From: an uncultured Lachnospiraceae bacterium
GTDB lineage: Bacteria; Bacillota; Clostridia; Lachnospirales; Lachnospiraceae
Reading direction: 5' to 3'
Length of the DNA stretch: 64,000 nucleotides
NCBI GenBank assembly: GCA_944380315.1
Contig: CALWHG010000002.1
Span: 51,498-115,497 of the forward strand
Shown piece by piece: positions 37,763 through 61,227 of the stretch. Every line of letters begins with the position of its first letter. The stretch's first letter is position 1. The notes beneath the pieces are model-generated. The model saw nothing but the letters and a program-made list of their open reading frames with translations. It did not search any database and had not been told where the DNA came from. A program made the position numbers and the translations under genes.

Positions 37763-38887
37763 TCAGAGCAGCCTTTTGAGCACTGAGCATATCCTCTCCA
37801 CCTCTGAAAGAGGCAGCTCAGGGTATATGGGAAGGGTCAGTACGCTCTCCGACATGCGCTTTGCCACAGGCGTATCATCAGGATCCATCTGTCCCCTGTA
37901 GCATGCAAATGCATTTATGCAGGGATAAAAATACTTCCTGGGATATATGCCTTCTGCACAGAGGCCATCATAGATCCTGTCCCTTGCAGACATGCCCTCC
38001 TCAAATATGACCGGCATGTAAGCATAGTTGAAGCGTACATTTGATGGCTCGCTCAGGAGCCTTACTCCCGGGACGTCTCCAAGAAGCGCCTTGTACTGTA
38101 GATATACATCCCTTCTCATGTCTATCCACTGATCCACATGTCTCAGGTTGCATATACCCATGATCGCGCAGAATTCATTGAGCTTGGCATTGCCGCCTAC
38201 GTATTCCACGCTCTCCTTGCCGGTTATGCCAAAGTTCTTGAGCTTATAGAGCCTGTCTCCCAGCCATGAGAGCTCAGGATCCTCCGCATTCCAGGTCACT
38301 GCTCCCCCCTCTATGGTATTGAAGACCTTGGTGGCATGAAAGCTGAAGATGGAGGCATCTCCAAGTGCAGCCACGCCCCTGCCGTCCACGGTCTCTCCAA
38401 AGGTGTGGGCAGCATCGTATATGACCCTGAGTCCATGCTTCCTGGCTATGTCCTCTATGGCCTTATAATCGCATATATGTCCGTACACATGAACAGGCAC
38501 TATGGCACAGGTCCTGTCAGTTATGAGCTCCTCAAGCCTGCCGGGATCCAGGGTACAGTCCTCCTCCCTTATGTCGCACATGACAGGCCGAAGCCCGTTG
38601 CGTACTATGGCATGAGTTGTAGAGGCAAAGGTAAAGGGCGTGGTTATGACCTCCCCCTCAAGCTCAAAGGCCTGAAGCACCATCTCAAGGGAAAGATGCC
38701 CGTTGGTGAAAAGCTCAAGGCCCGATGTTCCCAGATAGTCCTTAAGCTGTCCCTTAAGGATCTCATGGTACTTTCCCATGTTCGTAAGGCCATGGGTCAC
38801 CCATATGTCCTTCATCAGCTCCTCAAATTCCTCCATGGGAGGAAGGGATGCCCTTGTCACATATATATCTTCCCTTTTGTCCATCAT
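37763..38887 (-). CDS. DegT/DnrJ/EryC1-type nucleotide-sugar aminotransferase
   Basis: 374 aa PLP enzyme transferring an amino group to a keto-sugar nucleotide. Fold type I landmarks: LELFTNGHLSLEMVLQAFEL, VITTPFTFASTTHA, YDAAHTFGE (Asp to the PLP ring nitrogen) and SFHATKVFNTIEGGAV with the Schiff-base Lys. It resembles VioA/RffA-like 4-keto-sugar aminotransferases, but position specificity cannot be read. ATG at 38887 has GGAGG 6 bases upstream; an ATG at 38905 overlaps the preceding stop as TGATG. Last gene of the polysaccharide run. Confidence 0.9.
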   Translation of the reverse strand: MMDKREDIYVTRASLPPMEEFEELMKDIWVTHGLTNMGKYHEILKGQLKDYLGTSGLELFTNGHLSLEMVLQAFELEGEVITTPFTFASTTHAIVRNGLRPVMCDIREEDCTLDPGRLEELITDRTCAIVPVHVYGHICDYKAIEDIARKHGLRVIYDAAHTFGETVDGRGVAALGDASIFSFHATKVFNTIEGGAVTWNAEDPELSWLGDRLYKLKNFGITGKESVEYVGGNAKLNEFCAIMGICNLRHVDQWIDMRRDVYLQYKALLGDVPGVRLLSEPSNVRFNYAYMPVIFEEGMSARDRIYDGLCAEGIYPRKYFYPCINAFACYRGQMDPDDTPVAKRMSESVLTLPIYPELPLSEVERICSVLKRLL

Positions 38888-38904
38888 ACTTGTCCTCCGA
38901 TACA

Positions 38905-39981
38905 TCAGAGCTCCCAGATACCGGACTCCAGATGCTTCTGTATGTCTGCAAGCTCGCTGTCACTGAGCTCTCCCTCATTCTCTGCGCTGGGGGTCTCAGC
39001 CGCCTTCACGGGAGCCTCGGTCTTATCCTCTTTCAGCTCCTTCCCGCCTTCCGGCTTCCTGACCGTTATATCCTCTCTCTTGGGAAGCCTCATGAGCAGC
39101 TTGTGGAGTGGCAGCACTCTTTCCTTTTTAAGCAGGAGCCTGAGGACCAGATCTTCTGCCCTTTCCGGAGTGCTCTGCGCAAGGAGCTCCTTAAGCTCCC
39201 CGTGCCTCGCCATGCCGGTAAGCATACAGAGACTTTCCGTATCTGTGGTCTGAGTGCTCTGATAATATCTCTTTATGCTGTCAGCACACAGTCTCAGCAT
39301 ACGATTGTTCATGTCATTTATGACATCATCGTCCACATCCAGCCTGTCAAACAGCTCATTGTAAGCGGCTATGACCCTTATGCAGGCCTCTGGATCGGTA
39401 CGGCTCACGGTCTCATCCTTCACCCTGAGGAGGGCAGATCCTGCAAGGCTTATATTGCTGCAGTGCCTCATGTATCTGAAGCAGAATTCCATCTCTGCAT
39501 ACTCGGCCATGTCCTCCCTGTAGGCAAGGCCTGCCTTGCTTATGAGCTCCCTGTCGTAGAGCTTGTTTCCGCATATACGGAAAAGCCCCTTGTCAAATAC
39601 ATCCTGAAAGCAGGCATTGAGGAAGAGCTCCGGCTCGGCGGTAAATCTGTCCACCGGTCTTATGGTCTCCTTTTTTCCAAGCCTGCCTTCCTTTACATAT
39701 CCGCTTATGCAAAGCTCAGAGCCCTGGAGGGTACAGGTATCCAGCAGCCTTCCCAGAGCTCCTCTAAGGAGCTCCTGTCCCTCTGCCAGCATGAGCACCC
39801 ATCGGCCGGAGGCCTGCCTCAGGCCTTTATTCATGGCTTCAGCCCATGTGCCCTCCCTGATCACACATATCTCAGGTCCGGGACCCTGGGCCTTGATGGA
39901 ATCCATGATGATCTGAAGCTCCTCGCACTCCTCGGGAGCATACACTATGACACTTATAGATCTGTCCTTTACATCACTCAT
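38905..39981 (-). CDS. GT2-like glycosyltransferase, divergent
   Basis: 358 aa. The first 220 residues follow a GT-A pattern (SISVIVYAPEECEELQIIMD, AMNKGLRQASGRWVLMLAEG, MEFCFRYMRHC), weaker than a typical GT2: the DxD position reads as AEGQE. A helical region follows, and the last 60 residues are charged and low complexity (KPEGGKELKEDKTEAPVKAA ... ENEGELSDSELAD). It is 31 bases downstream of a clear GT2 gene. Likely adds a sugar to the surface polymer, or is a non-catalytic relative. Confidence 0.72.
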   Translation of the reverse strand: MSDVKDRSISVIVYAPEECEELQIIMDSIKAQGPGPEICVIREGTWAEAMNKGLRQASGRWVLMLAEGQELLRGALGRLLDTCTLQGSELCISGYVKEGRLGKKETIRPVDRFTAEPELFLNACFQDVFDKGLFRICGNKLYDRELISKAGLAYREDMAEYAEMEFCFRYMRHCSNISLAGSALLRVKDETVSRTDPEACIRVIAAYNELFDRLDVDDDVINDMNNRMLRLCADSIKRYYQSTQTTDTESLCMLTGMARHGELKELLAQSTPERAEDLVLRLLLKKERVLPLHKLLMRLPKREDITVRKPEGGKELKEDKTEAPVKAAETPSAENEGELSDSELADIQKHLESGIWEL

Positions 39982-40012
39982 AAAAGCTTTCTATCTCCCT
40001 GCCCCTGTCCTT

Positions 40013-40942
40013 TTATCCTTTCCTGCCCAGCCGCTCCACAAGCTCCAGCGCCAGAGTCTCCAGAAGCACTGCCCACTGGAAGAGCCTGACGGCTGCCATG
40101 CTTATGGGTCCAGCGGACAGATAATGCCTGTAATAATATCTCTCCGAACGCTGTCGAAGCCGCTGTCTCCTGAGAGCCCCAAGCCCTGCATGCTTTATGG
40201 AGCTTCCGCCTGCATGGGCATAGCTCCTTCCTGTCACCAGCACGGTACGATAGCCCGAGTCCTTCAGCCTGCGTGCCAGTACCGTCTCCTCACAGTAAAG
40301 GAATATGCCCTCGTCATAGCCTCCTGCTGCCAGCACCTTTTCCGTATCCAGCATGACCAGAGAGCCATGGACACAGTCAGCCGCCACCTCTCTCCGGGCT
40401 CCCGTCTCCTGAAAATGTCTCCTGCCATAGTCGAGCCTGCTTCCAAACAGTCTCCTGCATATGGGCCCTGAGGCGAGCACCTCCCAAAGAAGGCTCCTGA
40501 GAGGCCAGGCCGAGGCTCTGAGATCTCCATATGTCATGCTGCTGCCGCTCCTTATGACGGCTCCAGCCGCAGCCACCTCCTCGTCCTCAAAGCAGCTCTT
40601 CATGGCACCCACCAGCCCCTCATCAAATACCGAGTCCGGATTTGCTATAAGACAGAGCGCTGAGCCTGTTATCTCACAGGCATATCGAAGGCCTATGTTG
40701 TTGCCGTAGCCGTAGCCGCCGTTCCTGTCAGACAGCACCAGAGTATATCTGTCCGGCCCACCATCCGCATCCTCTGCATTTATCCTTTTAAGATAGCTGC
40801 CTAATTTACGGGCACTGTCATCGGTGGAGGCATTGTCCACCACGATGACATCATCGATGGCTCTGAAATGCCTCAGCCTTTCCACAGCGCCCTTGGTGGC
40901 CTCAGGATCATTGTAATTGAGTATGACCGCCGCAGTCTTCAT
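40013..40942 (-). CDS. GT2 glycosyltransferase (rhamnosyltransferase-like)
   Basis: 309 aa. AVILNYNDPEATKGAVERL, VVDNASTDDS, the LCLIANPDSVF nucleotide/metal motif and VHGSLVMLDTEKV with EGIFLYCEET follow WbbL-type dTDP-rhamnosyltransferases. A C-terminal amphipathic/hydrophobic stretch (SMAAVRLFQWAVLLETLALE) may touch the membrane. Overlaps the GT8 gene by 4 bases (coupled translation). With rfbABD on the same strand, rhamnose transfer is a reasonable inference. Confidence 0.88.
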   Translation of the reverse strand: MKTAAVILNYNDPEATKGAVERLRHFRAIDDVIVVDNASTDDSARKLGSYLKRINAEDADGGPDRYTLVLSDRNGGYGYGNNIGLRYACEITGSALCLIANPDSVFDEGLVGAMKSCFEDEEVAAAGAVIRSGSSMTYGDLRASAWPLRSLLWEVLASGPICRRLFGSRLDYGRRHFQETGARREVAADCVHGSLVMLDTEKVLAAGGYDEGIFLYCEETVLARRLKDSGYRTVLVTGRSYAHAGGSSIKHAGLGALRRQRLRQRSERYYYRHYLSAGPISMAAVRLFQWAVLLETLALELVERLGRKG

Positions 40943-41952
40943 CTTTCCGTTCTTTTTCTTATCCTTGCCATATAGTATACATGTGATATGCCGTACCTGA
41001 GCTCCGGTGCTGCCAGAGTGATCAGGTCCACCATATGATAGAACAGCATGTAAAATCTCTTCCCTTTTACCTTTGGTTTGTCCTTCCAGGGAGTCAGGCT
41101 CTGATAGCTCCTATACAGCTTCCTTCCGGGGCATAGGCTGCCTGCAAACCAGGGCCTCTCATCTCCCGCAAAATGCAGTATGGCAGGATGCTTCCTTGCT
41201 CTCTCAAAGCCCTCTCTGCCTCCTGGAGGCTCAAACCAGGGAGCATGCCTTCTGAGCACCTCATAGCTCTGGTATGTATATCCCGACATAAAATTGTATC
41301 TCTGGGGCATGGGGCTCACCCATCCTCTGAGTATGATATTGAGCACGTCCTGATCCGGAAAGCTGAGGTCTCCCTCCGAGCTCCCCATATATGTGACTGC
41401 CCTTTCAAAGATGCGCTCCTTCCTCCAGGCAGCCGCATCCATCAGTATGACTCCTGAGTTGTAGTAGGGCTCACTGTCAGAAAGGCCTATGCTCCTCTTT
41501 ATCTCAGGATATATGGTGGGCTCCATGGCCATGGAGGCCAGGCTCCCGCTTTTCAGTCCCTGCTGCCAAAGCCTCCTGAGGCTGCCAATGACCAGGGTGT
41601 CTCCATCTATATAAAGCAGCCTGTCTGCCTCCCCTATGAGCTCGGGAGCAAGTATGCGTCCAAAGGCCACCGCCCCGAAGCGTCCCAGGCTAAGCTCCCG
41701 TCCTGTGAGCCCCCTGAGCCTCTGCTCCATATCGGATATGTCCACGAGCTCAAGTCTCCTTGTGGGACCATAGGTATCCACCATGGAGCTGAGCAACTCT
41801 CCCGTCTTTTTACTGAGCCCGCTTTCCAGCAGATGTATATGTATGCCTTCTGCATCCCTGTTGTTTTCCAGCAGGGACACCATGCTCACAGCCACATAAG
41901 GGGCAAAGCCCTCGTCGCAGTTATAGACTATATGCATGTCCTCATTTGCCAT
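40939..41952 (-). CDS. GT8 glycosyltransferase
   Basis: 337 aa. MHIVYNCDEGFAPYVAVSMV start, the DxD motif in LLYIDGDTLVIG, NSGVILMDAAAW, FPDQDVLNIIL and the C-terminal HFAGDERPW are the classic GT8 series (LgtC/WaaJ type, retaining). UDP-glucose or UDP-galactose are usual donors. It overlaps leuA by 11 bases and the next GT2 by 4. Confidence 0.9.
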   Translation of the reverse strand: MANEDMHIVYNCDEGFAPYVAVSMVSLLENNRDAEGIHIHLLESGLSKKTGELLSSMVDTYGPTRRLELVDISDMEQRLRGLTGRELSLGRFGAVAFGRILAPELIGEADRLLYIDGDTLVIGSLRRLWQQGLKSGSLASMAMEPTIYPEIKRSIGLSDSEPYYNSGVILMDAAAWRKERIFERAVTYMGSSEGDLSFPDQDVLNIILRGWVSPMPQRYNFMSGYTYQSYEVLRRHAPWFEPPGGREGFERARKHPAILHFAGDERPWFAGSLCPGRKLYRSYQSLTPWKDKPKVKGKRFYMLFYHMVDLITLAAPELRYGISHVYYMARIRKRTER

Positions 41953-43642
41953 CTTTTCCTGTCTCCTCAGGGAAGTAGAGCCTGTTTATGGCTGAGAAGA
42001 GTCCTCGTATGGAGGCCCTCATGGTATTTGAGGAGCGTCCCACTCCAAAGGTCAGCCTTCCTGTCTCCTGATCCAGCAGCTGTATGTAAGCTACCGCGTC
42101 TGCAGAGGAGCCTGATGACAGGGCATGCTCCGTATAGTCCATGATACGCATGTGTACATGGAGCGCCTCCTCCAGGGCCTGCTGGGTAGCATCCAGAGGT
42201 CCGTGGGCAAGTCCCGACACCTCCAGCTCCTCTCCTCTGAGCCTGAAGCGGAGCTTTACCAGGGTGTTGCGTTCTCCATGATCGAAGGCTGTGTCCGCTA
42301 TGTCTATGCCGAGGAACTCCACCGGTCCTTTGGCATTTATATAATTGTCCTCAAGAGCTCCAAGGACCTCCGAGGGCTGTATCTCTCCCTTATGCTCACT
42401 GATGGCCTGTATGATGGCCGCGAATTCCCTGTGCATGGCCTTGGGCATCCTGTAGCCATAGTGGCTCTCCAGCACGAAGGCCACACCGCCCTTGCCGGAC
42501 TGGGAGTTGATCCTGACTATGGGCTCGTAGCTGCGTCCTATGTCAGCCGGATCTATGGGCAGATAGGGTACCTGCCAGGTCTCTGAGCCGGTCTTCTTCA
42601 TCATATGCATGCCCTTGTTTATGGCATCCTGATGGGACCCGGAAAATGCAGTGAATACCAGCTTTCCCGCATAGGGATGGCGGTCATCCACCTTCATGCC
42701 GGTGCATCTCTCGTAGACCTCCTGTATGTGAGGCTCATCCTCCAGTGCGAGCCCCGGGTCGAGGCCCTGGGAAAACATGTTGTAGGCCACGTTGAGCAGA
42801 TCCACATTTCCGGAGCGCTCACCGTTTCCGAACAGCGTGCCCTCTATCCTGTCGGCCCCTGCCAGCAGTCCCAGCTCAGCCGCAGCCGTGCCCGTGCCCC
42901 TGTCGTTATGGGGATGTATGCTCAGGCAAAAGCTGTCCCTGTTTGAAAGATTGGCCCCCATCCACTCTATCATGTCTGCGTAGACATGAGGCATGTGATC
43001 CTCCATGGTAGCCGGCAGATTTATGATCATGGGGTTAAACTCGCTGGGGCTCCAGATCTCCTTTACGGCCTCGCATACGTCCAGGGCAAACTTCATGTCC
43101 GCCCCAGTAAAGGATTCAGCAGTGTATTCGTAGACGAACTCGCCCGCAAATTCCCTCTCCCACCGAAGCTCCTTCACGAGCTTGGCCGCGCTTGTAGCTA
43201 TATATTTCACAGCTCCTGAGTCCTTGTGGTATACCACGTCCCTCTGAAGCCTCGATATGGGGTTATAGACATTGAATATGACCCTGGGCATGTCCTCCAC
43301 GGCCTCAAAGGTCTTTATGATCTGTTCTCTCCTGGCCTGGGTTATGACCTGTATATATACATCATCCGGTATGAGCTTCCTGTCCGAAAGCTGCCTTATA
43401 AAATCAAATTCCACCCTGGAGGCAGCAGGGAAGCCAACCTCTATCTCCTTAAAGCCCAGGTCGCAGAGCAGCTTGAAGAACTCCAGCTTCTCCTCCACGT
43501 TCATGGGCTTGATCAGGGCCTGGTTGCCATCCCGAAGATCAACAGAGCACCACCTGGGAGCCCGATCGAGCTTCCTGTTTATCCATGTCCTGTCCTTGTA
43601 TTCAAATGGCTCCTGTGGAGCATAACGTCTGTAATTAAGCAT
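41942..43642 (-). CDS. leuA: 2-isopropylmalate synthase (type 2)
   Basis: 566 aa. First committed step of leucine synthesis, condensing acetyl-CoA with 2-oxoisovalerate. WCSVDLRDGNQAL catalytic loop, EVGFPAASRVEFDF, SIHPHNDRGTGTAAAELGL with metal His ligands, GNGERSGNVDLLN, and a C-terminal regulatory domain (residues about 430-545) that normally binds leucine. The type 2 form is usual in actinobacteria and some Clostridia. No T-box leader: only 82 bases separate it from glmM, holding an imperfect hairpin at 43669-43698. Its place inside a polysaccharide run is odd and it overlaps a GT gene. Confidence 0.95.
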   Translation of the reverse strand: MLNYRRYAPQEPFEYKDRTWINRKLDRAPRWCSVDLRDGNQALIKPMNVEEKLEFFKLLCDLGFKEIEVGFPAASRVEFDFIRQLSDRKLIPDDVYIQVITQARREQIIKTFEAVEDMPRVIFNVYNPISRLQRDVVYHKDSGAVKYIATSAAKLVKELRWEREFAGEFVYEYTAESFTGADMKFALDVCEAVKEIWSPSEFNPMIINLPATMEDHMPHVYADMIEWMGANLSNRDSFCLSIHPHNDRGTGTAAAELGLLAGADRIEGTLFGNGERSGNVDLLNVAYNMFSQGLDPGLALEDEPHIQEVYERCTGMKVDDRHPYAGKLVFTAFSGSHQDAINKGMHMMKKTGSETWQVPYLPIDPADIGRSYEPIVRINSQSGKGGVAFVLESHYGYRMPKAMHREFAAIIQAISEHKGEIQPSEVLGALEDNYINAKGPVEFLGIDIADTAFDHGERNTLVKLRFRLRGEELEVSGLAHGPLDATQQALEEALHVHMRIMDYTEHALSSGSSADAVAYIQLLDQETGRLTFGVGRSSNTMRASIRGLFSAINRLYFPEETGKDGK

Positions 43643-43724
43643 CTCCTCACCCTGATTCCTAAACCAATACGCAGACGAAGCCTTCGCCTCGTCCGCGTCT
43701 ACTCTCTTTCTATGGCAGAAGGCC

Positions 43725-45083
43725 TCAGCCCTCTGCAGAAAGGCCCCTCTGTCTTATGACCTCCAGGACCCGATCCACCAGCATCTCGCACTGCTCCTCC
43801 GTAGGAGCCTCGACCATGACCCTGATGAGGGGCTCAGTGCCTGATCCCCTGACCAGTATGCGTCCTGTATCTCCAAGCTCCTCTGCCACCCTGTCCACGG
43901 CCTCCTGGACCTCCGGATCCTCCATGGCAGTCTGCTTGTCAGTGACTCTGATGTTTTTCAGGCACTGAGGGTACATGGGGCACTCCTCCCAGAGCTTTGA
44001 GGCCTCGCACTTCCTTGCCAGCATGACCTCCATGAGCCTGAGAGAGGTAAGTATGCCATCTCCCGTAGTAGCCAGCTTGGAAAATATGATATGGCCTGAC
44101 TGCTCGCCTCCAAGGCTGTAGCCCTTCTGAGACATGCATTCGTAAACGAAGCGGTCTCCTACCTGAGTCTTTTCGTAGCCTATGCCCTCTCTGTCAAAGG
44201 CCTTGAAGAGTCCAAAGTTGGACATGACGGTGACTACCACCGTATCATCCCTGAGCTCTCCATCCTCCTTCATGAGCTTTCCACAGGCATACATGATCTG
44301 ATCGCCGTTTATGACATTGCCCTTTTCATCGACTGCCAGGCACCTGTCTGCATCTCCGTCATAGGCAAAGCCTATATGACAGCCCTCCCTGAGCACGAAC
44401 TCTCTCAGGCTGTCTATGTGAGTGGAGCCGACTCCGTCATTTATATTGGTGCCGTTTGGCTCGCAGGCCATGACATGGGTCCTGGCTCCCAGCGCGTCAA
44501 ATACAGGCTTGGCTATGGATGAGGCTGAGCCATTTGCACAGTCAAGTGCCACATCCACTCCCTTAAAGGATCTGTCTGCTATGGATATGAGATATCCGAT
44601 ATAGCGGTTCCTTCCTGCTGCATAGTCTACGGTGCGTCCTATGTCGTCCCTGAGGGCCAGAGGTATGTCTCCCGACCTTCCGTCGAGATAGTCCTCTATG
44701 AGCTCTATGGTCCTGTCATCTATCTTTTCTCCGCTTCCGCTTATGACCTTAATGCCGTTGTCATAATAGGGATTGTGGGAGGCTGAGATCATGATGCCGC
44801 AGTCAAAGCCGTCCACCCTTACTATATACTCAACTGAAGGCGTGGTGGTCACATGCATGAGATATACGTCCGCTCCAGAAGCAGTGATGCCCGAAGAAAG
44901 TGCATCCTCAAACATGTATGAGGACCTCCTGGTATCCTTGCCTATGACTATGCGGCAGCGCTTTTCGGGGTGCTGATCCTTATAGTACCAGCCCAGGAAG
45001 CGTCCCACCTTGAAGGCATCCTCTACCCGAAGATCCACATTGGCCTCTCCACGAAAGCCATCTGTACCGAAATATTTTCCCAT
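43725..45083 (-). CDS. glmM: Phosphoglucosamine mutase
   Basis: 452 aa. Converts glucosamine-6-P to glucosamine-1-P for UDP-GlcNAc. FGTDGFRGEAN start, catalytic serine loop MISASHNPYYDNGIK, metal loop AYDGDADRCLAVDE, sugar loop GGEQSGHIIF and phosphate site RGSGTEPLIRVMVEA are all intact. GGGAGGA precedes the ATG. It sits 18 bases after rfbD, supplying amino-sugar precursor beside the dTDP-rhamnose genes. Confidence 0.96.
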   Translation of the reverse strand: MGKYFGTDGFRGEANVDLRVEDAFKVGRFLGWYYKDQHPEKRCRIVIGKDTRRSSYMFEDALSSGITASGADVYLMHVTTTPSVEYIVRVDGFDCGIMISASHNPYYDNGIKVISGSGEKIDDRTIELIEDYLDGRSGDIPLALRDDIGRTVDYAAGRNRYIGYLISIADRSFKGVDVALDCANGSASSIAKPVFDALGARTHVMACEPNGTNINDGVGSTHIDSLREFVLREGCHIGFAYDGDADRCLAVDEKGNVINGDQIMYACGKLMKEDGELRDDTVVVTVMSNFGLFKAFDREGIGYEKTQVGDRFVYECMSQKGYSLGGEQSGHIIFSKLATTGDGILTSLRLMEVMLARKCEASKLWEECPMYPQCLKNIRVTDKQTAMEDPEVQEAVDRVAEELGDTGRILVRGSGTEPLIRVMVEAPTEEQCEMLVDRVLEVIRQRGLSAEG

Positions 45084-45101
45084 AATACTGTCCTCCCGTC
45101 C

Positions 45102-45953: not shown

Positions 45954-45977
45954 ATGTCAGTCTGTCGCTCCGCTCTG

Positions 45978-47006: not shown

Positions 47007-47057
47007 ATCGAGCTGCGCCTCATATGGCGCCTTCCTTTCATAATATTATGTAAATGC

Positions 47058-47234: not shown

Positions 47235-47238
47235 ATGC

Positions 47239-48144: not shown

Positions 48145-48176
48145 GTGCCTGACTCCTTTTCTTTTGGTTTTACATT

Positions 48177-48205: not shown

Positions 48206-48232
48206 CCTTGGCAGTCGCCTGTGATGCGCTCC

Positions 48233-49423: not shown

Positions 49424-49446
49424 ATATGCCGGTCTCCTCTCTGCGC

Positions 49447-50856: not shown

Positions 50857-50878
50857 AGGCTAAAACTCCAATATCGAT

Positions 50879-52105: not shown

Positions 52106-52126
52106 ACCGTCCTCCTTAAGCTGCTG

Positions 52127-52144
52127 TGCCGGAAGCTTCCGGCA
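52127..52144. other. 18-base perfect palindrome between methyltransferase and pfp
   Basis: TGCCGGAAGCTTCCGGCA; no T-run follows, so a processing or stabilising hairpin is more likely than a terminator. Confidence 0.7.
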
Positions 52145-52153
52145 TAGTATGCA

Positions 52154-53410: not shown

Positions 53411-54341
53411 CAAAATTGATCCTTTCCTCCTCTACCACCAGCGGCCTGTGCATGACACGCTGGTTGATGCTGAGTATGTATTCCCCCAGGAGCCCCAGGA
53501 AAAATATCTGCACGCTCCCTATGAAGAGCATGCCTATGAGCAGGGGTGCCATACCTGCGCTAAAGCGGTCCCACCATATCAGCTTCATGATCAGATATAT
53601 GAGTGCCGCTGCAAGGCATATGAAGGAGCATATGGCTCCTGCAAAGGTGGCTATGCGCAGGCCCACCTTGGTATAGGAGGTAAAGCCCAGCATGGCTGCA
53701 TCGTACAGGGTGTAGAAATTGTTGTGTGTCTTTCCTGCCCTGCGCAGAGGCTGCTCATAGGGTATCTCCTTACGGGCAAAGCCAAACTCGGCCACCATGC
53801 CCCTAAGGAAGGGCGTGGGATCGTCCATCCTGCGGAGCACCTCTATAAATGCTCTGTCATAGAGTCCGGACCCGGTAAAATTCTCTATCTGATCCACGTT
53901 TGAAAACTTCTTTATCAGCTTATAGTACAGCTTCCTTATGCTGTACATCACCGGATTTTCCTTGCTTCCGCTCTTGACTCCTATGACTATCTTGTAGCCA
54001 TTTTCCCACTCCTTTACATAGCGGGGGATGAGCTCCACAGGATCCTGAAAATCAGCCACCATCTCTATGACACAGTCTCCGGTGACCTGAAGCATGCCAT
54101 AATAGGGCGAGTTGAACTGTCCAAAGTTCTTGGCATTGAAGATCGCCTTGATCTTTTTGTTTTCAGCGCAGAGACCTCTGATGATGTCTCTGGTCCCATC
54201 CGTGGAATCATTGTCTATGAAAACGAGCTCATAATCATACTGTGGCAGCTCCTTTTCCAGGATGTCCGTCACAGCCCTGCTTATGGGCCCCACATTGTCT
54301 TTTTCATTGTAACAGGGTATCAATACACTGATCTTTTTCAT
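53385..54341 (-). CDS. Membrane GT2 glycosyltransferase (GtrB/DPM1-like)
   Basis: 318 aa. GT-A domain with SVLIPCYNEKDNVGPIS, FIDNDSTDGTRDII and the DFQDP metal motif, then AEFGFARKEIPYEQPLRRAG-type segment and two C-terminal spans (TFAGAICSFICLAAALIYLI and PLLIGMLFIGSVQIFFLGLL). Proteins of this build link sugar to undecaprenyl phosphate. It may load a sugar for extracellular side-chain addition. 13 bases after the epimerase gene. Confidence 0.9.
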   Translation of the reverse strand: MKKISVLIPCYNEKDNVGPISRAVTDILEKELPQYDYELVFIDNDSTDGTRDIIRGLCAENKKIKAIFNAKNFGQFNSPYYGMLQVTGDCVIEMVADFQDPVELIPRYVKEWENGYKIVIGVKSGSKENPVMYSIRKLYYKLIKKFSNVDQIENFTGSGLYDRAFIEVLRRMDDPTPFLRGMVAEFGFARKEIPYEQPLRRAGKTHNNFYTLYDAAMLGFTSYTKVGLRIATFAGAICSFICLAAALIYLIMKLIWWDRFSAGMAPLLIGMLFIGSVQIFFLGLLGEYILSINQRVMHRPLVVEEERINFDEPDKKDA

Positions 54342-54354
54342 GTCTGTCCTGTCC

Positions 54355-55416
54355 TTAGGTATCTTGTCTTTCCGCTTCAGCTGCGGCTATGAGCTCTGCA
54401 GCTCCCCGGGAAAAGGGTATCTCCTCTCTGAACTCTCCTCCAGTCATTGCAAAGAGCCTGTCCGTGACCGGACATATGGAGAGGGCTCCCTCCTTTGCCT
54501 GCTGGAAGCTTCCATAGCAGAGCTCTCCTCTCCTGCCGGAAAGCTCATATATCTCCTCCACGAAGCCTTTGAGCACCCTGGTATCTTTTGAGGCCACATT
54601 GACTATGCTGTCCTCCCCGGGCTGCTCGTCAGCATGCTTATACAACAGCAGCACGGCCCTGGCCGCATCCCTTACCTCCATGAAGTTCCAGCGATGCCTG
54701 CAGGCGCTGAGGCTTACGCTGTGCCCCGCAGGAAGCTCTCTTGTGAGGGTGGATATGATGGACCAGGGGTGGTCTCCCCTGCCATATACGCTGAAGAAGC
54801 GCAGATGTATATAGCGCATGGACAGCTTCCTGCAGAGGCTTTCAGCCTCCTGGCCAAAGAGGAGCTTATTCCTCCCATAGGCATTTACCGGATCGCAGTC
54901 CATGGATTCCTCCATGATCCCGTCCTCCTTTATGCCATATTCCACCCTGGAGCCCGCATCCATGAAAACTCTGGCTCCAAGCTCCGATGCAAGCCTTATG
55001 CAGTCCAGTGAGGCCCTGCGGCTCCTCTCATGTATGGCATCATCATCTATGTCCCTGCGGTTGACCCCGTCCCAGGCAAAATGCAGGAAAGCATCCGCAT
55101 GCCGTGGAAGCCCCTCCGCGCTCCTGATATGCTCCAGATCTCCTGTCATATAGTGGAGCCTTTGCAGGAGCTCCTCAGTCGTCAGAGCCGTGGCCGCTTC
55201 GCCACAGGATCCAGGTGCACCTAGTCCAGAGACACCGGATCCAGATGCGCTAAGGCCAAGTATGTCAGATATACGGCCCTCTGCTTTATGAAGGGATCCG
55301 GGTCTCACAAGTCCATATACCCTGGCACCGGCCTTCAGAAATTCTGCTGCCACATAGCTGCCGATAAATCCTGATATACCCGTAATGATAATATTTTTAT
55401 CCTTTATGTCGATCAT
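54355..55416 (-). CDS. NAD-dependent epimerase/dehydratase
   Basis: 353 aa extended short-chain dehydrogenase. NIIITGISGFIGSYVAAEF, FLHFAWDG, VFMDAGSRVEYGI and catalytic Tyr/Lys in NAYGRNKLLFGQE. Residues about 52-78 hold a Gly/Ser/Ala-rich insertion (SASGSGVSGLGAPGS) absent from the neighbouring paralogue. It shares with that gene the LSAC...WN.M.V.DAA and DTR.L pattern, so the two arose by duplication. Likely reduces or epimerises a keto-sugar nucleotide; partial resemblance to CDP-abequose/paratose synthases (inference). Confidence 0.85.
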   Translation of the reverse strand: MIDIKDKNIIITGISGFIGSYVAAEFLKAGARVYGLVRPGSLHKAEGRISDILGLSASGSGVSGLGAPGSCGEAATALTTEELLQRLHYMTGDLEHIRSAEGLPRHADAFLHFAWDGVNRRDIDDDAIHERSRRASLDCIRLASELGARVFMDAGSRVEYGIKEDGIMEESMDCDPVNAYGRNKLLFGQEAESLCRKLSMRYIHLRFFSVYGRGDHPWSIISTLTRELPAGHSVSLSACRHRWNFMEVRDAARAVLLLYKHADEQPGEDSIVNVASKDTRVLKGFVEEIYELSGRRGELCYGSFQQAKEGALSICPVTDRLFAMTGGEFREEIPFSRGAAELIAAAEAERQDT

Positions 55417-55431
55417 AGTCGACCTTTCTGC

Positions 55432-56337
55432 TTATTTTAACTTTCTGTTCTCCAGCATCTCCCGGATGCCCCGGGCAAAGCTGTAGCTCTCCCGAAAGCC
55501 TCTGGCTTCCAGCTTCGATATGTCAGGAGCAAGATCAGAGGGTCCTTCCAGGTTTGAGCCCCTGCTGCCGAACCTGAGCTCAGAGCTGCTCCCAAGAAGC
55601 TCATGAAGCTCCTCCACATAGCTTCGCAGAGGCCTGGTGTCCCTGCCTGCTATGTTTATGATCTCAGCAGACGGCATACCATCCTGCAGCTCCTGCTCCA
55701 CGTCCCGCTCAGCCTCCTGCATGGCTATGTGGCCTATGGCTGCCGCAGCATCCTCCACATACATGTAGTTCCAGAGCTGGGTACAGGCTGAGAGGTCCAT
55801 GGGCTGATCCTTCATAAAGCAGCTTATGGCTGAGCTTATGAGTGAATCCTCCCTGTCCTCAGGCCCATATACGGAAAATATGCGCAGGTGTATGAACCTC
55901 ATGGGATCTGTATCGTCGTCCTCCCCGGCCAGGGACCTTGTCCAGGCTGAGGCCATGTCGCCAAAGGCCTTCTTGGCCCTGCCATATTCGCTTACAGGCC
56001 TGCACATACTGTCTTCTCTTATGGGCACTGTCCTCTGGGGCCCATATTCAGCCTGGGAGCCTGCAAATATAAATGCCTTTGCCGAAAGCTCCTGAGCCTT
56101 TTTGAGGGCAGCCATGGACATCTCCATGTTGTAGGCCTGTATGTCTTTGTTTGCGCGACCCTCAGGCCCTCTCCCTGCCCAGGCAAAATGCACCCATACG
56201 TCGGCAGAGCCAGGAAGAGCCTCCGGCTCCTCCTCAAAGCTGTGCCTGAGGCAGAACACCTCCATGCCCAGCTTCCTGAGGGCCTCTACCGTATGCTGTC
56301 CCAGAAAGCTCCGGGAGCCGGTGACTACGGCTCTCAT
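55432..56337 (-). CDS. NAD-dependent epimerase/dehydratase, paralogue
   Basis: 301 aa. Opening RAVVTGSRSFLGQHTVEALR is a slightly altered GxxGxxG, VHFAWAGRG, FAGSQAEYGP and active-site Tyr/Lys in SEYGRAKKAFGDM; LSACTQLWNYMYVEDAAAA and GRDTRPLRSYVEELHELL match the downstream paralogue. Starts inside the ThDP gene stop (TGATG overlap), so the two are translationally coupled. Presumed keto-sugar reductase or epimerase acting beside the ThDP enzyme. Confidence 0.85.
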   Translation of the reverse strand: MRAVVTGSRSFLGQHTVEALRKLGMEVFCLRHSFEEEPEALPGSADVWVHFAWAGRGPEGRANKDIQAYNMEMSMAALKKAQELSAKAFIFAGSQAEYGPQRTVPIREDSMCRPVSEYGRAKKAFGDMASAWTRSLAGEDDDTDPMRFIHLRIFSVYGPEDREDSLISSAISCFMKDQPMDLSACTQLWNYMYVEDAAAAIGHIAMQEAERDVEQELQDGMPSAEIINIAGRDTRPLRSYVEELHELLGSSSELRFGSRGSNLEGPSDLAPDISKLEARGFRESYSFARGIREMLENRKLK

Positions 56338-58565
56338 CAGCTCTTGACCCTCTTTACTATCATGTTGGCATCCATCTCCTCCTCGGGAAGGAAGGGAGCC
56401 ATGTCCTCAAGGGGAGGGCTCGAAAGGCTGCCGTCAGGATTCTTTTTAGTAGCGGATCTGGGCTCGAAGGGCTGGTCTATGGATACGAATACCTCACAGA
56501 GCACGGGGCCCTTGAGCTTGAGGGTCCTGCTTATGGCCTCCGCCAGATCAGTGTTGTGCTCCGCTCTTACATAGCTTATGCCAAAGGCTCCGACTATGCG
56601 TTCAAAATCAGGAAATGCCAGGTCGTGGCTGTCGCAGCCCACTCCTACCAGAGGCTCGTCAGAAAACAGATTCTGCTGGGTCTGGCGTATGCTGTGATAT
56701 CCTCCGTTGTTGATGAGGAACATCTTTATGGGCATGCGGTGGCTGGCTATGGTCTCCAGCTCCTGCAGGTTCATCATGATGGAGCCGTCTCCCGTATGAC
56801 ATATGACGTCATGCTCATGATATGCAGGATAATGCTCCTTTATGCCCTTCCAGTAAGGATCCTTCCTTGCGGCCTCCAGCTGTCCCAGAGCATAGGCCTT
56901 ATCTGTCAGCTGTCTTTCGGTCCTTTCCTCTGTGGTCTCGTATGCAGGCTCCGCATCCAAGGGCTGGGCATGTACCCTTCCCGTCACCTCATGACAGGCC
57001 ACGTAGGCGCCTATGGCAGCAGGCAGATCATAGCCCATGCTGGCTATGGCATCCTGGGAGATGAACCGGCTGCCATCCTTTATGATATAGGCCTGTGCTC
57101 CTGCCACGCAGGGGGTGCCGTTTCCGACTACCGTGATCTGGTCCTCACTGAGGGCGCGGCTGAGCACATTGTAAAATTCATAGACATTTACAGGCTCGTC
57201 TGAGCCATGAGCTGCAAACTCGTCCCGATATACTCCGTACCGTGACTTCCAGTAGCTGCTGGTCTCCCACCAGTTCATGCCGGGCAGTCCCTTGCCGCCC
57301 TTGAATACTATGGCATCGGAGGCGCTGTAGCCAAGCCTCCTGAGCTTGTCGCTGTCATCATAGTCATAGCCATGGCCAGTGTAGCCGAGCTCATCCAGCT
57401 TTTCAAGCAGTGCGCTCAGCAGATCGTAGGCATCGGCGTGTATGGGCACATCCACATGAAGCGAGGGCTTCTTGAGCTCCTCCTCATCTATGTCGCATAC
57501 CATGGTATAGGCCTCTCTGGCCCAGGTGGTGAAATTGTAGCCCACCTGTCTGATATTGAGCCTGGAGCCTACAGACAGTATGAAGTCCGCATTTTGTACG
57601 GTAAAGTTGCCCACCCGGTCTCCACGTCCTCCAGGCTGTCCCGAATAGAGAGGATGTATGGTGGGGATGATGTCTATACCGTTCCAGCCTACCACCACGG
57701 GTATGCCGAGCCTGTCCGCCACTCTGAGGAACAGATCCTCTGCCCCAGCTATGCGGAGTCCGTTTCCGGTGTAAAATACAGGCCTTTCAGCCGCCTCTAT
57801 ACGATTTATGATCTCCATGACCACAGGGCTGTCCTTGGTTATGAGCTCATAGGGATTCTGCCAGCGCTGCTTCAGGAATGAGACATTGAGCAGTCCGTCC
57901 CTCATGTCCGAAAAGGCATAGCGGTCCCTCTCCACGAGGCTCTCCTGATCCTCCATATCCTCTATCTCGTGAAGACGGTGGTTCCTTTCAAGCTCATACT
58001 CAGTCACATCAAAGGGCTCCAGGTCCTTGTCGTCTATAGTCATGCCCTGTATGTCAACGGGTATGTCCAGCCAGCAGGGACCAGGTCTGCCCGTCTGGGA
58101 CAGATAGATGCACTTTTCCAGCTCATAGCGGATGCTCATGGGATCCAGCACCATCTTGCTGTATTTGGTCATACAGTCTATGCTCCTGGTGATGTCGAAT
58201 TCCTGATCTCCCATGGACCTGATGCCCACGCCAGACCATCTGGCAGTGTTATCGTATCTGACCTGTCCGGATATGACTATCATGGGTATGGAATCCAGCC
58301 AGGCTCCCACCACGCCGGTGATGGCGTTCGTCCCTCCGGGGCCAGTGGTCACGCAGAGACAGGCCGGTCTGTTGTATATCCGGGCATAGCTCTCTGCCGC
58401 TATGGCGCAGGCCTGCTCGTGATGCATATAAAGCACATGCATGCCCGGATCATGGCCGAAGCCATCATTGAGATGCATGGCACCTCCGCCGGTGACGGAA
58501 AAGCACTGGGTTATGCCGTTTGCCACCAGCAGCTTAGCTACGTATTTTGCAAGTTTGATCTTCAT
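56337..58565 (-). CDS. Thiamine-diphosphate enzyme, acetolactate-synthase-like, with insertion
   Basis: 742 aa against about 560-590 for typical relatives. PYR domain with catalytic Glu in YMHHEQACAIAAESYAR and TTGPGGTNAITGVVGAWLDS; central domain (VVMEIINRIEAAERPVFYTG); PP domain with CHTGDGSIMMNLQELETI and LINNGGYHSIRQTQ, Mg/ThDP motif GDG-N intact. An insertion of about 50 residues (525-587; AEPAYETTEERTERQLTD ... KGIKEHYPAYH) precedes the ThDP motif. The C-terminus SSPPLEDMAPFLPEEE is typical of homologues in polysaccharide loci, such as YerE-like enzymes adding two-carbon units to keto-sugars. First gene of the (-) run; almost leaderless. Confidence 0.85.
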   Translation of the reverse strand: MKIKLAKYVAKLLVANGITQCFSVTGGGAMHLNDGFGHDPGMHVLYMHHEQACAIAAESYARIYNRPACLCVTTGPGGTNAITGVVGAWLDSIPMIVISGQVRYDNTARWSGVGIRSMGDQEFDITRSIDCMTKYSKMVLDPMSIRYELEKCIYLSQTGRPGPCWLDIPVDIQGMTIDDKDLEPFDVTEYELERNHRLHEIEDMEDQESLVERDRYAFSDMRDGLLNVSFLKQRWQNPYELITKDSPVVMEIINRIEAAERPVFYTGNGLRIAGAEDLFLRVADRLGIPVVVGWNGIDIIPTIHPLYSGQPGGRGDRVGNFTVQNADFILSVGSRLNIRQVGYNFTTWAREAYTMVCDIDEEELKKPSLHVDVPIHADAYDLLSALLEKLDELGYTGHGYDYDDSDKLRRLGYSASDAIVFKGGKGLPGMNWWETSSYWKSRYGVYRDEFAAHGSDEPVNVYEFYNVLSRALSEDQITVVGNGTPCVAGAQAYIIKDGSRFISQDAIASMGYDLPAAIGAYVACHEVTGRVHAQPLDAEPAYETTEERTERQLTDKAYALGQLEAARKDPYWKGIKEHYPAYHEHDVICHTGDGSIMMNLQELETIASHRMPIKMFLINNGGYHSIRQTQQNLFSDEPLVGVGCDSHDLAFPDFERIVGAFGISYVRAEHNTDLAEAISRTLKLKGPVLCEVFVSIDQPFEPRSATKKNPDGSLSSPPLEDMAPFLPEEEMDANMIVKRVKS

Positions 58566-58573
58566 AATAAATC

Positions 58574-58602
58574 ATTATACCGTTTAGGAAGGCTTTACTC
58601 AA
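58574..58602 (-). promoter_or_regulatory. Promoter of the ThDP-led (-) operon
   Basis: On the (-) strand TTGAGT (58602-58597), 17-base spacer, perfect TATAAT (58579-58574). Its -35 overlaps the -35 of the divergent (+) promoter. Confidence 0.75.
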
Positions 58603-58622
58603 CAAAATGTTTGTTGTATTAT
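58594..58622 (+). promoter_or_regulatory. Divergent promoter of the second DHHW/MBOAT pair with spacer palindrome
   Basis: TTTACT (58594-58599), 17-base spacer, TATTAT (58617-58622). The spacer is exactly an inverted repeat, CAACAAA-ATG-TTTGTTG (58600-58616), an operator-like site that also abuts the (-) promoter. Confidence 0.65.
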
Positions 58623-58659
58623 CATTATCAGTGATTTTTAGGATATAGGACAAATTTTG

Positions 58660-59805
58660 ATGAAACATTTCAGAAATATACTGCTTATACTGGGTTTTGG
58701 AGCCATACTGCTCATGCCACTTCCCATGGAGCTGCTGTCCAGACACGCAGGCATAGGGCTCTCGGGAGTGACAAAGGAGGCTGCACCGCCTTCCATGGAT
58801 ACTGAGGCTCTCATGGACGGCAGCCTTCAGTCCGGCCTCGATTCCTATGTGAGCTCCGAGCTTCCCGGCAGGGATCTTATGATAAAGCTTAGGAATCAGG
58901 CTCTTTTTTCCGTCTTTGACATCTCCCCCAACAGCAACATCATCATAGGAAAGGATCATGATCTTTTTGAGGAGGAATATATATCCAAATATGAAAAGGT
59001 CTATCCCCCTGCAGAGGAGAGCTATGTGCGTGAGCTCTGTGATGATCTTACCTATATAAGGGACAGGCTGGAGGAGCAGGGCAAGGAGCTCTATATCTTC
59101 ATAACTCCCACCAAGGTAAGATACTATGAGGAGGATGTGCCCGACACCTTCAGGGCAGGCGCAGCCTTTACTGACATGCCTGGAAATCATGAGATATTTA
59201 CGAAGGTCCTTTCGGAATATGATCTCAAGGTCTATGACTCCATAGCCTATATCGACACCATAAAGGAGGGCTTTGACTACCCTCTCTACTACAGGACCGG
59301 CACTCACTGGAGCTGGCCCCTGGCTACAGCAGTCACCATCGACCTGACTGCCTGGCTTGATGAGCAGAGCTCCTACAGCTTCACTCCCGGTAGCATGGAG
59401 TGCAGGGAGGTGTCGGCGCCCGTATATCCGGATGCGGACATCTTTGACTCCCTCAATCTTTTTGAGGAGCCCTACGACCGCCCCTACTATGAGGCCGTAT
59501 TTTCTGCAGCTCCCCAGGAAGGTGAAAGGCCTTCCCTTTTCTGCCGTGGAGGCAGCTTCATGGGCCAGTCCCTGACCACTCTCATAAACAGCGGCTATTT
59601 TGACAGCTTCACCTATGTGGAAAATACCAATGCATTCAGGAACGACCTGACGGCCCCGGTGACATTTTCCGATTACTCGGAGCTTGATCTGGCTGCAGCC
59701 CTTGAGGAGGCAGACATAGTCATACTTGAGGTCAATGAGGCCCACATACCTACCATGAGCTTCGGCCTCATCGAATATATCATGGAACATCCGGAGGTGC
59801 TCTGA
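58660..59805 (+). CDS. DHHW-like protein with altered catalytic motifs
   Basis: 381 aa. N-terminal membrane anchor (NILLILGFGAILLMPLPMEL), then an SGNH-like extracellular domain. It aligns with the DHHW protein at 48233 in order (ELYIFITPTKVRYY, then YYRTGTHWSWPLA, then LFCRGGSFMG), but the Asp of DTHW is Gly (GTHW) and GDSF reads GGSF. It may be a weak or non-hydrolytic partner, or a subfamily using other residues. ATG at 58660; the TTG just before it lacks better support. The MBOAT gene starts 3 bases downstream, so they are coupled. Confidence 0.82.
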   Translation: MKHFRNILLILGFGAILLMPLPMELLSRHAGIGLSGVTKEAAPPSMDTEALMDGSLQSGLDSYVSSELPGRDLMIKLRNQALFSVFDISPNSNIIIGKDHDLFEEEYISKYEKVYPPAEESYVRELCDDLTYIRDRLEEQGKELYIFITPTKVRYYEEDVPDTFRAGAAFTDMPGNHEIFTKVLSEYDLKVYDSIAYIDTIKEGFDYPLYYRTGTHWSWPLATAVTIDLTAWLDEQSSYSFTPGSMECREVSAPVYPDADIFDSLNLFEEPYDRPYYEAVFSAAPQEGERPSLFCRGGSFMGQSLTTLINSGYFDSFTYVENTNAFRNDLTAPVTFSDYSELDLAAALEEADIVILEVNEAHIPTMSFGLIEYIMEHPEVL

Positions 59806-59808
59806 GCT

Positions 59809-61227
59809 ATGGTTTTCGTATCCCCCATATTTGTATTTTTATTCCTGCCTGGCACCTTCCTGCTCTATATGCTGGCAGGACTGAGCCGCAGGATGGCACC
59901 GAAAAACCTGGCCCTCCTGCTCTGCTCCCTTATATTTTACGCCTGGGGAGGCGTAAGGTATTTCATACTGCTCATGATCTCCACCTGTGCAAACTACCTG
60001 TTCGGCAGACTGCTTGAGACTGAGGATGAAGGAAGGCGCCGCCTTGTGCTCATACTCTCTGTCATATGGAACATAGGCATACTTTTCATCTTCAAATACT
60101 TCAACTTTTTTGCGGAAAACCTCTTTTCCCTCCTGGGCCTTGCAGGCATCAGGCCGGAGGTGGAGCTTCCGTATATCACGCTGCCCATAGGCATATCCTT
60201 CTTTACCTTCCAGATCATGTCCTATGTCATAGACGTATACTGGCGCAAGGTGCCGGTGCAGAGGAGCCTGCCTGATCTGGCCCTCTATATCATGCTCTTT
60301 CCTCAGCTCATAGCGGGCCCCATAGTCAGATACATAGATGTGGAGCGTGAGATCAGCCAGAGGAAGGCGGATCCTGTCATGATACACGACGGCATATCCA
60401 GGTTCATAGTCGGCTTTGCAAAGAAGATACTGCTGGCAAACTCCATGGGCTATGTGGCAGATGCGGTATTTGCACAGCAGAGCATAAACACGGCCTATGC
60501 CTGGCTTGGTGTCATCTGCTATGCCCTTCAGATATACATGGACTTTTCATCCTATTCTGACATGGCCATAGGCATGGGCAAGATGTTCGGCTTCCGCTTC
60601 CTTGAAAACTTCGACTATCCCTATATAGCCAGATCCATAAGAGAATTCTGGAGGCGCTGGCACATATCCCTGTCTACCTGGTTCAGGGACTATGTATACA
60701 TCCCTCTGGGAGGGAGCCGCTGCGGCAGGTGGAAGACCTACAGAAATCAGATCATCATCTTCCTGCTGACCGGCTTCTGGCACGGAGCCAGCTGGAATTT
60801 CGTCATATGGGGACTCTACTATGGCATATTTCTGGTGCTGGAAAGGGCCTTCCTTGGCAAATGGCTCGAAAGGCTGCCATCCTGGATAAGACATGTCTAC
60901 ACTCTGGTGGTAGTGCTGGTAGGCTGGGTATTTTTCCGCTGTGAGACCCTCCCTCAGGCCATGTCTTACATAGGCTCCATGTTTTCCTTTGACTTCACGA
61001 ACTTCAACGTGATCAGCATCCTCCGCTGCTTCAACAGGGAGTTCTACCTTATGCTGGCCATCTCCCTGATCGGGAGCTGTCCGGTAGTGCCCAGGCTCAA
61101 GTCCCTCACGGGACGCTCCCAAACACTGGGGCTCATGACCGATGTGCTGCTCCTGCTGCTCTTCTTCTACAGCGTATGCTACATGATGGGAGCGGACTTC
61201 AATCCGTTTATATATTTCCGCTTTTGA
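59809..61227 (+). CDS. MBOAT-family O-acyltransferase, second copy
   Basis: 472 aa, about 11 spans. Same landmarks as the first copy: LPIGISFFTFQIMSYVIDVY, FPQLIAGPIVRYIDVE, QIYMDFSSYSDMAIGMG, REFWRRWHISLSTWFRDYVY and catalytic GFWHGASW; both end in NPFIYFRF. Predicted to export acyl groups to the DHHW partner. Its stop abuts the stop of the convergent gene at 61228, with no visible terminator between. Confidence 0.93.
   Translation: MVFVSPIFVFLFLPGTFLLYMLAGLSRRMAPKNLALLLCSLIFYAWGGVRYFILLMISTCANYLFGRLLETEDEGRRRLVLILSVIWNIGILFIFKYFNFFAENLFSLLGLAGIRPEVELPYITLPIGISFFTFQIMSYVIDVYWRKVPVQRSLPDLALYIMLFPQLIAGPIVRYIDVEREISQRKADPVMIHDGISRFIVGFAKKILLANSMGYVADAVFAQQSINTAYAWLGVICYALQIYMDFSSYSDMAIGMGKMFGFRFLENFDYPYIARSIREFWRRWHISLSTWFRDYVYIPLGGSRCGRWKTYRNQIIIFLLTGFWHGASWNFVIWGLYYGIFLVLERAFLGKWLERLPSWIRHVYTLVVVLVGWVFFRCETLPQAMSYIGSMFSFDFTNFNVISILRCFNREFYLMLAISLIGSCPVVPRLKSLTGRSQTLGLMTDVLLLLLFFYSVCYMMGADFNPFIYFRF

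Follow-up and report, generated by a model that had tools for sequence, protein, structure and literature searches.

A conserved operon of five genes in the draft genome of an uncultured Lachnospiraceae bacterium (2.19 Mb, 95% complete) is predicted to provide a surface glycan with an unusual sugar. We hold with modest confidence that this operon makes and loads a C-branched deoxysugar, with a C-methyl group on the same sugar. The operon is located on the minus strand at 52154-58565 of the window, the whole stretch of 64,000 nucleotides analysed (contig C2, 51498-115497). It encodes a thiamine diphosphate (ThDP) enzyme, two short-chain dehydrogenases/reductases (SDR2 and SDR1), a glycosyltransferase of family 2 (GT2) resembling PgfS and GtrB, and a C-methyltransferase (C-MT). 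The original prediction had treated the surrounding 23 kb as one locus for a branched, amino-modified and O-acylated sugar. This extent is not retained, because leuA, glmM and a phosphofructokinase gene lie within the stretch and the genes flanking the core differ from one genome to another; the conserved unit is confined to 52154-58565. The branched deoxysugar itself, proposed to arise from a YerE-type ThDP enzyme and a NovU/TylC3-type C-MT, is well supported, although it is probably not drawn from the adjacent genes for deoxythymidine diphosphate (dTDP) sugars.

The ThDP enzyme

The first gene of the operon (56337-58565, minus strand) encodes a protein of 742 amino acids, in which the three TPP_enzyme domains (N, M and C; PF02776, PF00205 and PF02775) all score above the Pfam cut-off, in agreement with the acetolactate-synthase-like ThDP enzyme named originally. 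Its best relative among solved structures in the Protein Data Bank (PDB) is 8rph (E 2.3e-106), followed by an acetolactate synthase at 1e-49. Excerpts of PMC12188165 identify 8rph as the YerE-like enzyme JanthE, which couples ketones with 2-oxo acids. The last 66 amino acids match 8rph alone (E limit 1). As JanthE is the top solved relative and the tail matches only JanthE, the enzyme is assigned to the YerE-like proteins; its grouping with these sugar-branching enzymes is well supported, and from its sequence it would very probably ligate a 2-oxo acid to a keto-sugar. No homologue with a demonstrated role outside sugar metabolism was encountered that is closer than JanthE, itself known by its activity in vitro. 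In an alignment of 15 ThDP proteins, E50, G592, G594, N619 and N620 are invariant and D593 is kept in at least 90%; we take E50 to be the active-site glutamate and GDG...NN to be the cofactor motif.

A comparison of loci from named genomes used the best 80 of at least 591 relatives (at least 597 pattern stretches); two of them, L060 and L074, have ThDP proteins identical to those of L052 (same genus) and L057 (same family), respectively. The window enzyme is longer than JanthE (619 amino acids). Its segments 190-233, 399-417, 422-427 and 527-584 are absent from at least 80% of the enzymes without a C-MT, in a comparison that omitted L078 and placed L053 among the C-MT-bearing enzymes. Residues specific to either set were uninformative, as only positions 114, 115 and 611 split the two. 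The plasmid collection holds only distant relatives (1060 records, all below 60% identity); the ten matches listed are 26-30% identical and, where annotated, are mostly acetolactate synthases.

In 19 of the 80 loci, the YerE-like gene has a gene for an HMGL-like protein no more than 3.5 kb away on the same strand (for example L098:7691-9295 and L058:10213-11808). The protein of L098 is nearest to 4-hydroxy-2-oxovalerate aldolase, with 78 bits against a cut-off of 229. ErwE uses hydroxylated 2-oxo acid donors for a longer branch, according to excerpts of PMC12247030, and by analogy the HMGL-like protein may supply such donors for longer branches.

Supply of the keto-sugar

The genome contains rfbF and rfbG together on contig C14 and rfbH on contig C27. 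All three exceed their NCBIfam equivalog cut-offs (371 bits against 300, 391 against 278 and 702 against 423, respectively). RfbH aligns over almost its whole length with the CDP-4-keto-6-deoxyglucose-3-dehydrase 3bcx (E 5.3e-150; CDP, cytidine diphosphate). It has a His-His motif at the position of the pyridoxal phosphate (PLP) lysine of aminotransferases and a CxCx7C group, and we presume that these residues have the roles known from this type of enzyme. RfbG matches the CDP-glucose 4,6-dehydratase 1wvg in the PDB. The known acceptor of YerE is CDP-4-keto-3,6-dideoxyglucose (PMC12247030, in the passages available). Since rfbF, rfbG and rfbH are present elsewhere in the genome, the acceptor of the window enzyme is probably this CDP sugar rather than a dTDP sugar, and we have good confidence that the ThDP step would take place on a CDP-4-keto-3,6-dideoxy sugar.

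Among 61 relatives, the ThDP enzyme was found in 26 (E ≤1e-60), RfbH in 35 (≤1e-100) and RfbG in 37 (≤1e-60). Both RfbG and RfbH are present in all 26 ThDP-positive genomes, and RfbH in 9 of the 35 ThDP-negative ones (Fisher p 6e-10). Outside the genus, among 12 genomes of the family, the corresponding figures are 5/5 and 2/7 (p 0.027). At least one of rfbF, rfbG and rfbH lies on the same strand within 11 kb of the ThDP gene in 42 of the 80 loci, and all three in 20. The genome has seven matches to PF01370, namely RmlB, RmlD, RfbG, SDR1, SDR2, one read as GalE and one weak match. This census leaves SDR1 and SDR2, within the superfamily, as likely users of the RfbH product.

The genes beside rfbF and rfbG (C14; L017:11970-18752) encode a GT2, a protein with a SIS domain that by eye resembles GmhA, and two membrane proteins that have multiple helices and no Pfam match; from their sequences, the two membrane proteins could be glycosyltransferases for lipid-linked sugars. 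The gene adjoining rfbH (C27; L018:14986-15834) is presumably LicD-like, and BLAST places relatives of it close to the ThDP genes of L055 and L058.

The C-methyltransferase and its link to the ThDP enzyme

The C-MT gene (52154-53413, minus strand) begins with TTG and its reading frame overlaps that of the GT2 gene. The protein scores above cut-off for Methyltransf_23 and Methyltransf_14 and below it for Methyltransf_13 (20.4 bits against 31.3); there is no match in PHROGs. Its best PDB match is the TylC3-type 4rv9 (E 7.1e-22), and it aligns over the full length with TylC3 and TcaB9, which bears out its earlier description as a NovU/TylC3-like enzyme. Cys17, Cys20, Cys61 and Cys64 are conserved, as is the pair Asp225-His226. 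In all 22 C-MT sequences aligned, the active-site histidine is kept, the neighbouring glutamate is replaced by aspartate, and the position of the tyrosine is occupied by Ile, Leu or Val. We take the tyrosine, glutamate and histidine to have the roles known at the TylC3-type active site.

The C-MT is tied to the YerE-like ThDP enzyme. In 392 genomes of the order, a C-MT homologue was found in 13 (E ≤1e-30) and a ThDP match in 45 (E ≤1e-60), the latter a lower bound, as two candidates per genome were scored and candidates were not all scored everywhere. The two occur together in 11 of the 13 C-MT genomes, on the same contig and 0.9-2.9 kb apart (p 9e-10). In the set of 61 relatives, the C-MT is present in 20, all within the genus, and 19 of these have the ThDP enzyme. 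The 80 loci include 12 with a C-MT, excluding a cut copy in L060.

On a tree of 101 ThDP proteins, built by a quick method with the plain LG model, the presence of the C-MT requires 3 changes compared with about 24 in shuffles, none of 500 being as low. For five loci (L040, L042, L051, L052 and L060) presence was set by hand, the C-MT being on another contig, beyond the stretch or cut at its end. Pairwise distances of the ThDP and C-MT proteins are correlated (Mantel r 0.82, 20 rows), which could be explained by descent alone. The 20 ThDP proteins with a nearby C-MT on the same strand have 644-761 amino acids. Of the remaining 80, 68 have 586-645 and 12 are longer; the 12 include seven from loci of the same genus, six of them with a C-MT elsewhere. 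These lengths are counted from the first possible start, and some are overlong (e.g., L088 and L110).

Reductases and glycosyltransferase

SDR2 (55432-56337, minus strand) is an extended short-chain dehydrogenase with the motifs TGxxxFxG and YxxxK; SDR1 (54355-55416, minus strand) belongs to the same family (PF01370). They are 37% identical over 260 amino acids, and the nucleotide-binding and YxxxK motifs are kept in both. PHROGs labels both as 'nucleotide-sugar epimerase'. The original view of two paralogous sugar epimerases thus holds as to paralogy, and the epimerase label is too narrow, since by sequence SDR1 and SDR2 may be ketoreductases. SDR2 adjoins the ThDP gene in 14 of 15 neighbourhoods of the same genus (L040-L053); the exception, L055, has a ThDP enzyme of another branch. 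The position between SDR2 and the PgfS-like gene, here termed slot B, is occupied by SDR1 or by a medium-chain dehydrogenase/reductase (MDR). In 30 loci, SDR1 was found in 10, an MDR in 12 and neither in 8, some being truncated at the end of a contig; the two were never found together. A single MDR, that of L051, was compared, and its nearest relatives are NADP-dependent secondary alcohol dehydrogenases (E 1.2e-71), a similarity that suits a ketone in the branch. Three loci with ThDP, SDR2 and PgfS genes that have no C-MT (L078, L099, from Clostridium fessum, and L107) also have no slot-B gene, so that the C-MT and the slot-B enzyme have the appearance of a single module.

The GT2 (53385-54341, minus strand; PF00535) has two hydrophobic helices at its C-terminus by hydropathy. 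It scores 164.6 bits with the NCBIfam PgfS model, against a cut-off of 500, and 116.3 against 529 with the ArnC-type model; lying under both cut-offs, it probably handles another sugar. As judged from its sequence, it may load the sugar on undecaprenyl phosphate. In other genera the gene order is usually ThDP, SDR2, C-MT, slot B and PgfS. The cassette of L063 is part of a polysaccharide locus, as it precedes additional GT2 genes and the gene for a priming sugar transferase (PF02397).

The ThDP-SDR2 pair of L049 is apart from the PgfS and C-MT genes, and in L053 the latter two are not in the stretch. In both loci the pair adjoins hydrogenase-subunit-like genes and a gene for a PHP-domain protein, as read from sequence.

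Proposed pathway

In the pathway that we infer, RfbF would make CDP-glucose, RfbG would convert it to the 4-keto-6-deoxy sugar and RfbH would remove the 3-oxygen, giving CDP-4-keto-3,6-dideoxyglucose. The ThDP enzyme would decarboxylate pyruvate, or another 2-oxo acid, and add the acyl carbanion to the C4 ketone. This step would yield a tertiary alcohol that bears at C4 an acyl branch of two carbons, the ketone of which would be reduced by SDR2 or by the slot-B enzyme (SDR1 or MDR). The C-MT would act on the same sugar and methylate one of its enolisable carbons; the simplest choice is C3, which adjoins the C4 ketone, with methylation preceding the ThDP step. The slot-B reductase that accompanies the C-MT would fix the product. 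The PgfS/GtrB-like transferase would then transfer the sugar to undecaprenyl phosphate for export and addition to the surface glycan. For the C-methyl group landing on the same sugar as the branch, we consider the chances to be even.

Several observations weigh against the proposed pathway. RfbG and RfbH are present in all 25 members of the genus, so the association of the ThDP enzyme with the rfb genes across the 61 genomes largely reflects shared ancestry. None of rfbF, rfbG and rfbH is found in the flank of the 21 C-MT-bearing loci, compared with 44 of the other 80, nor in 20-80 kb around the cassette in seven further genomes, which may overlap the earlier set. As regards the C-MT, the replacement of the tyrosine and glutamate beside the histidine means that its acceptor may differ from that of TylC3-type enzymes. 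Homologues without a ThDP match exist in two of the 13 genomes of the order (G062 and G258, weaker at 45% and 36%) and in one relative (G004, whose genome is 87% complete). The C-MT is missing from seven ThDP-positive relatives, including two members of the genus (G014 and G022), and the clustering of the C-MT on the ThDP tree may represent one gain kept by descent. The reductases are not fully accounted for either. There are two for one remaining ketone, and one is left over. L068 and L095 have a C-MT and neither type of slot-B gene; in G391, best matches indicate an SDR1-like gene (37%) next to the ThDP gene and an MDR in slot B.

Alternative explanations

The main rival is that the operon serves two separate sugars. 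The ThDP enzyme and SDR2 would make a yersiniose-like sugar, and the C-MT and slot-B enzyme a C-methyl-6-deoxysugar (virenose- or noviose-like) from CDP- or dTDP-4-keto-6-deoxyglucose. This would account for the two reductases, and the loci that miss both the C-MT and slot B (L078, L099 and L107) give the pair the look of an added module; furthermore, C-3 methylation of nucleoside diphosphate-4-keto-6-deoxyhexoses by TylC3-type enzymes is the virenose route proposed in silico (excerpts of PMC3539893). We nevertheless regard it as unlikely, as the operon has only one loading glycosyltransferase, a C-MT without the ThDP enzyme is rare (1 of 20 and 2 of 13 genomes), and the inserts of the ThDP enzyme track the C-MT-bearing clade. 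It is improbable, in our view, that the C-MT methylates the acyl branch at the methyl ketone carbon, which would give a longer branch and not a second one. The branch ketone would be the sole ketone left after the ThDP step, and both the similarity of the MDR to secondary alcohol dehydrogenases and the altered active site of the C-MT are consistent with such a reaction; however, characterised members of the family presumably act on ring carbons beside a ring ketone.

The branched sugar could also be built on dTDP-4-keto-6-deoxyglucose, made by the products of the adjacent rmlA and rmlB. The rmlA gene is about 4 kb downstream, the close relative G003 has it in the same order (L041), and the C-MT-bearing loci have no linked rfbF, rfbG or rfbH. 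A clear rmlA beside the ThDP gene is nevertheless limited to L041 and, of the 80 loci, L087 and L124, in contrast to the 42 loci with a nearby rfb gene and the presence of RfbG and RfbH in every ThDP-positive relative; a dTDP route therefore appears improbable. The possibility that the ThDP enzyme simply serves branched-chain amino acid synthesis as an acetolactate synthase was considered and rejected, and we give it almost no credence. A leuA gene is nearby and the best NCBIfam match of the ThDP enzyme is the biosynthetic acetolactate synthase, but the score of 278.9 bits is far below the cut-off of 538.35, and IlvC (PF01450) was not found in the 95% complete genome, a search that was positive in 14 of 14 control genomes. 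As far as the draft genome allows, these two results argue against an acetolactate synthase, as do the operon context and the tail that matches JanthE alone. The enzyme is the one PF02776 protein of the whole genome.

Neighbouring genes

Downstream of the core on the minus strand, the gene for a diphosphate-dependent phosphofructokinase (50879-52105; NF010675, above cut-off) is probably outside the pathway. It is followed by an accessory MBOAT O-acyltransferase (49447-50856; PF03062) and its AlgX/DHHW-like partner (48233-49498; PF16822). The dTDP-rhamnose genes rfbA, rfbB and rfbD of the original prediction are confirmed. RmlA (glucose-1-phosphate thymidylyltransferase; 47239-48144; TIGR01207), RmlB (dTDP-glucose 4,6-dehydratase; 45978-47006; TIGR01181) and RmlD (dTDP-4-dehydrorhamnose reductase; 45102-45953; TIGR01214) are all encoded on the minus strand; each exceeds the NCBIfam equivalog cut-off, and they would belong to a separate dTDP branch. 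There is no rmlC among the window open reading frames scanned, and no search of the genome was made for it. Further downstream, and still inside the 23-kb stretch, are glmM (43725-45083), leuA (41942-43642) and, on the minus strand, genes for a GT8 (40939-41952) and a GT2 (40013-40942), both glycosyltransferases scoring above cut-off. A weak GT2 (38905-39981) has 19.2 bits, under the cut-off of 23.3; of the four glycosyltransferases originally counted, three (GT2, GT8 and the PgfS-like GT2) are thus above cut-off. The last gene encodes a DegT/DnrJ sugar aminotransferase (37763-38905, minus strand), expected from the earlier annotation and recognised by Pfam, with a lysine in the PLP motif and DesI as its best NCBIfam match (264 bits against a cut-off of 650).

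A second O-acylation pair lies on the plus strand, divergent from the core operon. The AlgX/DHHW-like gene (58660-59805; PF16822 above and DHHW below cut-off) has an ATG at 58660, the listed open reading frame starting at a TTG at 58657; the MBOAT gene follows at 59809-61227 (PF03062). The two MBOAT proteins are 51% identical and each gene is beside an AlgX/DHHW-like gene, as had been described. A minus-strand frame antisense to this pair (58534-59790) has no Pfam match. Of 20 neighbourhoods of relatives, L040 and L041 alone have close homologues (at least 47%) of the MBOAT and DHHW genes beside the core; more distant MBOATs (30-33%) are encoded close to the ThDP genes of L056, L098 and one stretch of G316. 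No evidence was found linking the aminotransferase or the O-acylation pairs to the branched sugar. No flippase or polymerase profile was detected among the 33 window open reading frames scanned with Pfam; the original prediction had likewise named none in the window.

The leuA of the window has a second copy, 49% identical, on contig C17 (28259-29851). The genome, despite its two leuA genes, yielded neither an ilvC nor a further protein resembling acetolactate synthase, leaving no evident source of 2-ketoisovalerate. Proteins with repeats of the choline-binding type are encoded at 15993-16928 (above the Pfam cut-off) and 36649-37602 (below it) of the window, hinting, by their sequences, at wall-bound surface proteins.

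Relation to known systems

By sequence, the window enzyme is in the same family as the YerE-like ThDP lyases YpYerE (yersiniose A), ErwE (erwiniose) and JanthE. It shares the C-terminal tail of JanthE but is enlarged by its inserts, and its relatives keep company with rfbF, rfbG and rfbH. The yersiniose A pathway comprises RfbF, RfbG, RfbH, YerE and YerF, and RfbH works with an E3 reductase. The window genome has rfbF, rfbG, rfbH and a YerE-like gene, although on three contigs (C2, C14 and C27), and compared with that pathway the operon has an extra C-MT, a second reductase and a PgfS-like glycosyltransferase. Relative to the known YerE-like systems in general, the C-MT and slot-B reductase are additions and the host is one of the Lachnospiraceae. 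The sources of YerE-like enzymes named in excerpts of PMC12247030 are Gram-negative, spirochaete and mycobacterial, and the words 'Firmicutes', 'Gram-positive' and 'methyltransferase' appear nowhere in the text available from that review. The same excerpts put the number of predicted YerE-like enzymes above 200, with a product structure lacking for the vast majority.

The C-MT retains the four cysteines and the active-site histidine of the NovU/TylC3/TcaB9 enzymes; it differs from TylC3 and TcaB9 in the other two site residues and in having a YerE-like enzyme as its partner. With enzymes of the GtrB, PgfS and ArnC type, the window GT2 has in common the GT2 domain and two C-terminal helices, although it is far below the cut-offs of the PgfS and ArnC-type models. 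Passages on the polysaccharide of Eubacterium saburreum T15, a Lachnospiraceae glycan, in PMC10888714 and PMC8707391 describe D-fucofuranose and xylulose, and these passages make no mention of a branched sugar. Among the literature matches listed, no title or start of an abstract dealt with the pairing of a YerE-like enzyme and a C-MT; the comparison does not extend to a survey of YerE-like clusters reportedly made by Krug et al. in 2024 (Angew. Chem. e202403535). The branching enzyme is thus of a known kind; what looks new among those matches is that in Lachnospiraceae it is stably paired with a C-MT and accompanied by a second reductase.

Few glycans are known to contain C-branched sugars of ThDP enzymes. 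We tentatively suggest, with slightly less than even confidence, that the product of a clade of Lachnospiraceae is an undescribed hexose whose ring bears two carbon branches; it would be loaded on undecaprenyl phosphate and appear on the surface of commensals of the mouth and gut. Its two-carbon branch at C4 would be set by an enlarged YerE-like enzyme and its C-methyl group by a C-MT with an altered catalytic site. If both branches are on one sugar, two chemistries of carbon–carbon bond formation would act on a single nucleotide sugar. The enzymes may also be a source of ketone-accepting ThDP catalysts for the synthesis of tertiary alcohols. For gut and oral Lachnospiraceae, the compact and conserved cassette narrows the enzymes worth assaying to a few and points to one particular sugar.

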